NCBI GenBank assembly: GCA_958349075.1
Contig: CATWBR010000011.1
Location: 1 to 23,478, forward strand
Direction of reading: 5' to 3'
Length of the DNA: 23,478 nt
From: an uncultured Clostridium sp.
GTDB taxonomy: Bacteria; Bacillota; Clostridia; Lachnospirales; Lachnospiraceae
Shown one piece after another: positions 15,901 to 17,262 of this stretch. The position numbers and the translations under genes were made by a program. The notes below the pieces were generated by a model. That model was not told the DNA's origin. It saw only the letters and a list, made by a program, of their open reading frames with translations, and did no database searches. The first letter of the stretch is position 1, and the number at the start of each line of letters is the position of its first letter.

Positions 15901-16419
15901 AGGGACGGAGCATTTGTAACAATCGGCGGCATGGTTACGGCCAAGACGGTAAAAACCACGAGAACGAATAAGATGATGGCTTTTGTAACGATAGAGGATC
16001 TGGCCGGAAGCGTGGAAGTACTTGTATTCCCGAGGGATTACGAAAAGAAGAGACAGTTCCTCGAGCTGGATGCCAAGATATTTATTACCGGCAAGGCGTC
16101 TATCGGCGATGATCCGGTAGGAAAACTGATCTGTGAACAGGTGATCCCGTTTGAAGCGGTTCCGAGAGAGGTGTGGCTTCAGTATCCCGACAAGGAAACG
16201 TATTTTTCCGGGGAGCAGGAACTTCTTAATATACTCAGGGAATATGAGGGCAGTGACCAGGTAATTGTCTATCTTGGAAAGGAAAAAGCCAAAAAAGTGC
16301 TTCCGAGGAACTGGAATGTGGAGGCGAAGGAAGAACTTCTGTCCGCTCTCAGGGAGAGGCTGGGGGAGAAGAACGTGAGGGTGATTGAGAAGACGATTGA
16401 CAAGGCGGCAAGGAGATAA
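12940..16419 (+). CDS. dnaE: DNA polymerase III subunit alpha (DnaE type)
   Basis: Catalytic subunit of a C-family replicative polymerase, 1159 aa, normal for DnaE. A PHP domain at the N-terminus has metal-ligand-like THLHVHTEYS (4-13) and ITDHGVMYG. The palm carries PGRGSAAGSIVAYSLG and PDIDIDF (396-402), with Asp397 and Asp399 as catalytic metal ligands by analogy with E. coli D401/D403. QMSMF at 911-915 matches the QxxMF beta-clamp-binding motif. An OB-fold follows near 990-1070. There is no inserted DEDD exonuclease, so it is not PolC. The start is GTG at 12940 with AAGGAG 9 nt upstream; no ATG is nearby and the protein begins as the family does. In Firmicutes with PolC, DnaE works mainly in lagging-strand initiation; whether PolC exists here cannot be seen. 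No clear promoter lies in the 65 bp after the preceding terminator. Confidence 0.97.
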   Translation: MAFTHLHVHTEYSLLDASSKIKELTARAKDLGMDSLAITDHGVMYGVIDFYRAAKEVGIKPIIGCEIYVAPGSRLDRENVNGEDRYYHLILLAENNVGYQNLMKIVSKGFVEGFYYKPRVDYEVLSQFSEGIICLSACLGGEVQRYLSRGMYEQACKSALRYQEIFGKGNFFLELQDHGIPAQKTVNQGLLRMSQELDIPLTATNDCHYIYKEDVESHDILLCIQTGKKVADENRMRYEGGQYYLKSEEEMRSIFPYAADALDNTHKIAERCNVEIEFGVTKLPQFDVPEGYTSWEYLKKLCFDGFYKHYPDDDGSLKERLEYELGVIQSMGYVDYFLIVWDFIHFAKVHDIMVGPGRGSAAGSIVAYSLGITDIDPIRYQLLFERFLNPERVSMPDIDIDFCFERRQEVIDYVVSKYGKDRVVQIVTFGTLAAKGVVRDVGRVLDMPYAKCDSIAKMIPGDLGMTLDKALKASPDLRNAYQEDEEVKYLIDMSRRLEGLPRHTSMHAAGVVISKASVDEYVPLSRAADGSITTQFTMTTLEELGLLKMDFLGLRTLTVIQNAVRLAEKTCNKTIDLYQIDYNDKNVLNSIGTGKNDGVFQLESSGMKSFMKELKPENLEDIIAGISLYRPGPMDFIPRYLKGKNDKQSITYECPQLEPILAPTYGCIVYQEQVMQIVRDLAGYTLGRSDLVRRAMSKKKGSVMEKERQNFVYGNEEEGVKGCIANGIDEKTANHIYDEMIDFAKYAFNKSHAAAYAVVSYQTAFLKYYYPVEFMAALMTSVKDNVSKVSEYIMACRQMGMKIVPPDINEGEGGFSVSGGSIRYGLSAIKSIGQSVVEEIVRERQERGLYKSLEDFVDRMSSKEVNKRTLESFIKSGAMDSLPGTRKQKFLVSAQLLDQKNKEKKNSMEGQMSMFDIVAEEEKEDFQITFPNVGEYTKEELLAFEKEMLGVYISGHPMEAYIGLWEKNVTAKTSDFTVDEETGEAEIRDGAFVTIGGMVTAKTVKTTRTNKMMAFVTIEDLAGSVEVLVFPRDYEKKRQFLELDAKIFITGKASIGDDPVGKLICEQVIPFEAVPREVWLQYPDKETYFSGEQELLNILREYEGSDQVIVYLGKEKAKKVLPRNWNVEAKEELLSALRERLGEKNVRVIEKTIDKAARR

Positions 16420-16484
16420 ATGGGGATTTAGTTGAGATGCGAGGACGCCTCTGTAAGACGGCGGACGGGGGAGTGGAGGGTGTG

Positions 16485-16690
16485 TATGAGTCTTCAGTCC
16501 CGGTGGATGGCTGAGGTGAGGGGGAATCCGGAGAAAAAAATTCCTGCGGGGACACGCTTCCGCTTGTGAAGCGCACAGCGGATGCTAGGCTCGAAAATAC
16601 CTCGCCAAGCACCGGCGGGCTTCAAGGTCACCCTTCGGAAAGTTTTTCTCCTCCTTCCCCGGGCAGGTTGTCGACGGGACTGAAGACTCA
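16485..16690 (+). repeat. left half-palindrome of the giant inverted repeat
   Basis: TGAGTCTTCAGTCCC (16487-16501) recurs as its exact reverse complement at 16676-16690, so the left half can also fold on itself. Inside it are a local hairpin CGCTTC/GAAGCG (16555-16560 with 16568-16573) and AAGC/GCTT around an ACCGGCGG loop (16607-16622). Each end carries one copy of a roughly 65-70-nt module. Confidence 0.8.
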
Positions 16691-16749
16691 GGGAAGGTGA
16701 TTGCCCCGTCCGCCGGCTTCAGGGGCTGATTGTCTCTTTCGTCAAGTGC

Positions 16750-16877
16750 GGGGGAGGGTATTGTCTCGGCCGCTACGTGGCTGTGATACCTGTAACGGTT
16801 CAGCGGCTTGAGAGTTTCTGCTAGACATTCTCCCTGCAATCGGAAGAACGTAGTGACAGCGACAATACCCTTCCCCC
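16750..16877 (+). repeat. central long hairpin of the giant inverted repeat
   Basis: GGGGGAGGGTATTGTC (16750-16765) pairs with GACAATACCCTTCCCCC (16861-16877) with a single bulged base. It continues inward through CTACGT/ACGTAG (16773-16778 with 16848-16853) to an apex near 16810-16832 containing GAGA/TCTC. Outward pairing also continues, for example GGCTGA near 16724 with TCAGCC near 16895. Confidence 0.8.
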
Positions 16878-16934
16878 TGAAGGAATAGAACAACTCAGCC
16901 ACCGCAGGCCGGGCGGAATGGCGACAACCTGCGC

Positions 16935-17140
16935 GTCTTCAGTCCCGGGCGATAACCTTCCCGTGGGGAAGAAGGGAGAAAAAGATTCCGCAGGGAACCT
17001 GGGAGTCCATCAGCACTTAGGCGGCGTTTCTCAGACGCCTTAGTACTGTTATGTACTCCAAAGAGCGCAAGCGTTTCCCGCAGGAACTTTTTCTGTCCGG
17101 ATTCCCCACCCGCCACAGCCTTCAAACCGGGACTGAAGAC
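16935..17140 (+). repeat. right half-palindrome of the giant inverted repeat
   Basis: GTCTTCAGTCCCGG (16935-16948) is exactly complementary to CCGGGACTGAAGAC (17127-17140), so the right half also folds on itself. Small internal hairpins are AGGCG/CGCCT near 17019-17040 and AGTAC/GTACT near 17042-17057. It is laid out like the left half. Confidence 0.8.
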
Positions 17141-17233
17141 TCATAGTCTCCCCTCACCATTCCGAACCCCGACCGTCCCGGCGGCGTTCTCTTTCTTCAA
17201 CTCCCTCCTAGTTAAAAAAATATCATAAACCCC

Positions 17234-17262
17234 TTGAAAAGAAGGATAAAATGAATTAGAAT
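17234..17262 (+). promoter_or_regulatory. promoter for pfkA
   Basis: TTGAAA (17234-17239) and TAGAAT (17257-17262) are separated by exactly 17 bp in AT-rich DNA just past the giant palindrome. Each hexamer differs from consensus at one position. The start site would be near 17269, about 54 nt before the pfkA ATG. Confidence 0.8.

Follow-up and report, generated by a model that had tools for sequence, protein, structure and literature searches.

A large palindrome between dnaE and pfkA in a relative of [Clostridium] symbiosum is probably a copy of a dispersed, MITE-like palindromic element

A palindrome in the dnaE-pfkA gap

The window, a 23,478-nucleotide stretch of DNA, comes from a relative of [Clostridium] symbiosum as judged by DnaE comparison: over the best segment, DnaE identity reaches 97% with C. 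transplantifaecale (L001) and 94% with C. symbiosum ATCC 14940 (L032). NCBI taxonomy places C. symbiosum in Lachnospiraceae and C. transplantifaecale under Clostridiaceae. The gene for DNA polymerase III alpha (dnaE) ends with a TAA stop codon at 16417-16419, and the gene beyond the gap encodes 6-phosphofructokinase (pfkA). Between this stop codon and the region upstream of pfkA lies an inverted doublet (16422..17202, no strand assigned), recognized by its tips and by the complementarity of its arms. Its tips, GGGGATTTAGTTGAG on the left and TTCAACT on the right, were compared by eye with those of 23 other copies. DNA in common with C. symbiosum restarts at ~17207, and a promoter-like TTGAAA-17-TAGAAT, read by eye on the plus strand (17234..17262), is located outside the element, upstream of pfkA. 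The minus-strand open reading frames (ORFs) overlapping the palindrome, considered by length only, comprise 87, 105, and 76 amino acids.

The initial annotation described a single coherent palindrome filling this gap. The two arms, 16430-16816 and 16817-17202, are indeed complementary, with 285 of 361 aligned positions being Watson-Crick (78.9%) and an alignment score of 265, relative to 13.2 (sd, 5.9; highest, 45) when the right arm was permuted base by base 200 times. When folded as RNA, 16420-17220 reached -436.1 kcal/mol versus -298.5 kcal/mol (sd, 9.0) for 20 dinucleotide shuffles (z = -15.3), and the opposite strand folded almost equally well (-425.8 kcal/mol, z = -11.7). These analyses confirm both the large palindrome and its excess pairing over shuffled sequence. 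The G-T mismatches that had been read as a hint of selection on RNA pairing carry no weight, given that 21 G-T and 17 A-C mismatches are found across the rod formed by the window copy.

The palindrome is also nested, since each half is a palindrome itself, and these halves are what shows covariation among copies. The left half is a plus-strand hairpin of ~280 nt (16440..16735; inverted repeats I4, I6, and I7) whose local pairing is kept in an alignment of 25 copies and whose nested arms pair 16455-16470 with 16704-16719 and 16487-16502 with 16675-16690. It carries a conserved apical module at 16542..16648 (plus strand) that matches our covariance model R1 at 94.5 bits (E = 1.6e-25), a match that exists by construction because this module is 1 of the 24 R1 training sequences. 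The apex core, CTAGGCTCGAAAATACCTCGCCAAG (16585..16609, plus strand), falls in the best-conserved columns of the 24 units and gave 1 exact pattern match, with 0 in 100 shuffles. A central stem-loop (16750..16876, inverted repeat I3, no strand assigned) follows; when 32 other centres were compared, this part varied in both sequence and length between copies. The right half is a hairpin of ~290 nt in the opposite orientation (16910..17202, minus strand, inverted repeat I9), with nested arms at 16935-16948 and 17127-17140. Its more diverged apical module (16977..17086, minus strand), which was left out of R1 model building, matches R1 at 53.7 bits (E = 2.5e-13). R1 is thus found in both halves on opposite strands, and the window element is two facing copies of one hairpin unit around a variable centre.

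Copies of the doublet and the conserved hairpin unit

The palindrome between dnaE and pfkA is neither unique nor best taken as one RNA rod. The C. transplantifaecale locus L001 has the element at the same site, with 88% identity in the left half and 77% in the right half, while the corresponding site of C. symbiosum ATCC 14940 is occupied by a short spacer. Eighty DnaE loci were compared, 72 with both genes and 8 without pfkA; apart from L001, none of those 72 gave a BLAST match to the element, and R1 had no match in the 79 other dnaE loci. A first search with the element DNA returned 148 matching pieces in the C. transplantifaecale genome G001 and 84 in the C. symbiosum genome G002. G001 contains at least 40 grouped copies (40 of 227 candidates were scored), and a 35-base left-tip pattern allowing up to 3 mismatches occurred 105 times in this 5.7-Mb genome of the closest relative examined, compared with 0 times in a reversed control. 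Scattered copies with clean empty sites had been named as support for a mobile element, the reading that fits better: there are 105 scattered tips, and the dnaE-pfkA site of C. symbiosum is empty. The C. symbiosum sites orthologous to L126 and L114 are empty but diverged rather than clean. Two C. symbiosum sites orthologous to occupied C. transplantifaecale sites (L250 and L254) hold ordinary-looking bidirectional terminators.

The copies have in common the left tip, a similar inverted right tip, two conserved halves, and a variable centre. Among C. transplantifaecale copies, the right halves fall into two sequence types; in the type unlike that of the window, the 3' arm of the right half has no exact match to the left half, and its own 5' arm has changed alongside. 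Judging from these sequences, the matched arm changes are compensatory changes within a half. Close pairs of units are almost always of one polarity: among the 108 G001 hits listed, 20 of 21 pairs were (+,-), none was (-,+), and 1 was on the same strand, and 13 of 14 unit pairs within 700 nt were (+,-) by eye. Doublets are present in C. symbiosum as well.

When 25 copies were aligned (those of the window and L001 plus 23 others), free folding of the consensus gave local hairpins at an energy of -239.9, with 31 pairs contributing 139 double-change cells. Allowing rod pairs only gave an energy of -199.9 and 10 double-change cells at 8 pairs; 98% of cells were paired in either fold. Because the free fold is superior in both covariation and energy, the conserved structure consists of separate hairpins enclosed by a short outer stem. 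We therefore reject a single rod-like RNA, and the suggestion of one near-continuous RNA hairpin gives way to separate hairpins. For single copies, the free minimum free energy was still better than the sum of the three parts folded apart, so a rod or mixed fold is possible for one molecule.

The hairpin unit extends well beyond these two species. We searched 397 family genomes, a set taken as Lachnospiraceae that includes Hungatella, Mobilisporobacter, and C. fessum genomes. With the element DNA (2 candidates scored per genome), 14 genomes had hits; outside G001, these were short and limited to the left-hairpin apex, and the sites proved to be hairpins with different lower stems. The R1 covariance model matched 196 of the 397 at E = 0.001, 153 of which reached E = 1e-6 (counted by eye). 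Since 9 candidates were scored per genome in the R1 search, its copy numbers are lower bounds. Module counts were at least 150 in G001, 126 in G274, 41 in G002, 38 in G376, 37 in G404, and 11 in G363. In a set of 291 class genomes, 7 matched at 1e-6, 5 of which are also in the family set. Comparisons directed at a plasmid or phage origin gave short chance matches only, and the 25-base core pattern had 0 exact matches in viral contigs.

Across 24 aligned units, the module contains an invariant CGCTNNCGCT, a consensus CGC-AG-CGG bulge, and a CTCG-AAAANA-CCTCG loop. Double changes are carried by 24 of its 26 pairs, and 84.0% of module cells are paired, relative to 67.6% in shuffles, with the apex helix reaching 97.4%; by the covariation measure of further pair types, the module was no better than shuffles (47 versus 45.2). 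The lower stems differ in sequence between genomes while their pairing is kept. The arms of 157 units aligned over a median of 72 nt with a median identity of 0.86, as expected for the terminal inverted repeats (TIRs) of a miniature inverted-repeat transposable element (MITE), and for 39 of the 40 units listed, the span of the stem was 125-248 nt.

Several variants of the unit were also observed. In L294 and L300, the AAAANA loop is replaced while the flanking module is kept, and the L300 replacement resembles an extra small hairpin. In L155 and L160 (~1400-1630), units with quite different lower stems lie between apparently the same genes (thiolase and enoyl-CoA hydratase, by eye), which may reflect either an insertion hot spot or turnover of the stem.

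Gene context and direct repeats

The 157 units from other genomes were sorted by gene context: 104 were in co-directional gaps, 16 in convergent gaps, 16 in divergent gaps, 17 inside a called ORF, and 4 at an edge, relative to 123 co-directional, 18 convergent, and 32 divergent gaps overall at the same loci; these classes were derived from ORFs of at least 300 nt without a gene finder, and one G001 locus was left out. Among the 104 co-directional cases, the module strand is sense to the flanking genes in 66 and antisense in 38 (P = 0.008). We found no preference for the 3' ends of genes around 37 of the 40 C. transplantifaecale copies, where the 3' end faces the element for 39 of 74 flanking genes. 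Stop codons occur in two or three frames of the left tip, and several C. transplantifaecale genes end inside it (e.g., at L114, L123, L130, and L140).

Direct repeats of at least 8 nt were found within 40 nt of the stem in 17 of 156 single units, relative to 4.6 expected from mispaired flanks, a control that ignores shared local base composition; for repeats of at least 10 nt, the counts were 6 of 156 and 0.4 expected. In 9 of the 17, as judged by eye, the repeats are no more than 3 nt away from either stem end; their lengths range from 8 to 16, and 7 of these 9 come from two genomes, G195 and G274. Examples include L305, where the 8-bp GATTATTA flanks both sides of GTAACAGTTC...GAACTGTTAC, and L304, where a 16-base direct repeat is found beside the unit. 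These repeats may represent target-site duplications. The giant doublets gave no such signal: 0 of 26 had a direct repeat of at least 8 nt (0.36 expected), 14 of the 40 loci fetched having been dropped because the tip was not found. We propose that doublets are free of duplications either through age or through a different mode of insertion.

Neither of two candidate mobilizers was associated with the units. Y1_Tnp, the domain of RAYT transposases, was not found in G001 and occurred in 104 of 196 genomes with units and in 108 of the 201 genomes without a match (odds ratio, 0.97; P = 0.92). The transposase of IS66 (PF03050), an element with GTAA ends, occurred in 66 of 196 and 63 of 201, respectively (P = 0.67), and was not found in G274 or G195. 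We therefore reject both RAYT and IS66 as mobilizers. When one end was tested in one genome, a longer, autonomous partner was not found, the 6 matches representing 3 elements with ends ~200 nt apart. Among the neighboring ORFs of at least 120 amino acids beside units (112 of 267 were scanned), no transposase was present in the 25 commonest of 165 Pfam families; 2 thiolases and 2 enoyl-CoA hydratases were among the ORFs scanned.

Alternative explanations and a candidate mobile element

REP sequences have been proposed to stabilize or process mRNA, and the hairpins described here could similarly act in transcripts, in 3' untranslated or intercistronic regions, with their dispersal being secondary. 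The sense bias (66 of 104) is consistent with this reading, as are the thiolase-enoyl-CoA hydratase sites in L155 and L160 with their different lower stems, the position of units L226, L229, and L236 ahead of apparent terminators (by eye), and the covariation of the apex helix, where G-T outnumbers A-C by 26 to 6 and one pair accounts for 18 of the G-T (T-G) and 0 of the A-C. The outer pairs, by comparison, have more A-C (87) than G-T (56). The 40 sequences from G001 also have 210 G-T versus 26 A-C, but as related copies they were set aside; their trend is opposite to that of the 77 non-redundant units, in which G-T and A-C are nearly equal (114 versus 108). Given this near equality, RNA pairing is probably not what keeps the stems matched. 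Orienting units by their flanking genes revealed no G-T excess in the stems either (102 G-T and 99 A-C on the motif strand of sense units; 55 and 48 for antisense units). Since, in addition, the window copy folds about as well on one strand as on the other, direct repeats flank some units, and whole elements have multiplied along with their stems, a primary role in RNA appears rather unlikely. The originally suggested selected RNA hairpin is weakened by the separate hairpins, the near equality of G-T and A-C, and the similar folding of both strands, although the sense bias speaks in its favor. Bidirectional terminators that replaced native ones between genes would account for the several copies that abut or contain the stop codons of flanking genes and for the apparent ordinary terminators at the two element-free C. 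symbiosum sites. Where a gene reads into the element, however, no T-run follows the stem base, with 2.73 T per 9 nt directly after the stem compared with 2.59 in a stretch 30 nt beyond (136 cases, P = 0.49). We rejected a terminator function on these grounds and consider it very improbable.

REPINs, in which REP palindromes are arranged as inverted doublets and mobilized by a RAYT (Y1/HUH) transposase, resemble the element in their palindromic units with conserved bulges, one-polarity inverted doublets, intergenic location, and high copy number, a likeness that extends to BIMEs. PMC8266576 describes a REP as a 20- to 50-nt palindrome with a conserved tetranucleotide tag; the stems analyzed here are several times longer, and they fit neither the size nor the tag given in PMC8266576 and PMC3733652. 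Given this mismatch and the lack of any link to Y1_Tnp, a REPIN-like origin is improbable. Least credible of all is a foldback chimera produced during assembly. Long palindromes can be chimeric, and two of the 40 grouped G001 copies extend to a contig end; nevertheless, a separate genome (L001) has a diverged version of the element at the corresponding site, and the flanks are distinct among copies.

The palindrome is instead probably a copy of a dispersed, non-coding, non-autonomous palindromic element of MITE-like character. Dispersed copies, a doublet architecture, a conserved module, presence or absence at one site, and direct repeats beside some units are all observed, and mobility of the element is strongly suggested. 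The element is similar to a MITE in its dispersal, its inverted-repeat arms, its intergenic location, and the short direct repeats flanking some copies. It differs in that its ends vary in sequence from genome to genome around a conserved, structured internal module, in that no partner transposon was detected with the one end tested, and in that the giant doublets are free of duplications. An ordinary transposon has conserved ends; here the interior is conserved and the ends vary, the opposite of an ordinary MITE, which raises the question of what reads the module; the covariance model renders this question testable. Integron attC sites are imperfect palindromes in which bulged bases mark one strand of a folded hairpin, and the bulged bases of the element, likewise an imperfect palindrome, would do the same. 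It is also long, highly structured, and intergenic, as Rfam structured RNAs are. Nevertheless, no Rfam covariance model matched the window at its gathering score, the element gave only weak and implausible matches at E values up to 5, and the units of 7 loci gave no credible match at E values up to 1; the one RNA detected there, Clostridiales-1 (RF01699, E = 3e-30), lies outside the unit, just upstream of it (L083, 1218-1379).

In the mechanism we propose, the building block would be the family-wide hairpin, in which a long, closely paired lower stem carries a conserved apical module whose bulges and loop are fixed. The lower stem would form the ends of the element and serve as its TIRs, and an enzyme acting in trans would read the folded module, most likely as DNA, and move the element. 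Two of these hairpins, plus then minus, appear to have been multiplied together around a variable centre in the C. symbiosum group, as a unit of ~0.8 kb, and survival mainly in intergenic gaps would reflect the loss of insertions elsewhere. More tentatively, the unit may represent a class of mobile elements defined by a folded module rather than by its ends, with the apical stem-loop being recognized and the TIRs freely replaced between lineages. If so, one fold would be found with many ends across a bacterial family, in addition to giant doublets in the C. symbiosum group.

Independently of how it moves, an intergenic structured element that reaches at least 100 copies per genome, occurs in about half of the sampled family genomes, and lacks an Rfam match bears on annotation, assembly, and operon prediction in this family. 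No description of it was found in the open-access literature searched. Three minor observations concern its forms and neighbors. In G005, G106, and G367, several matches extend over no more than the inner 30 nt of the module, in some cases as two matches less than 100 nt apart, and may represent a minimal form of the unit. In L092 (1-1500), an apparent group II intron (by eye), whose reverse-transcriptase frame is broken, meets the left-hairpin apex at TTCGAAAATACC. Lastly, in L156 (1091-1596), a 180-nt repeat containing the unit is present in 2.8 tandem copies.
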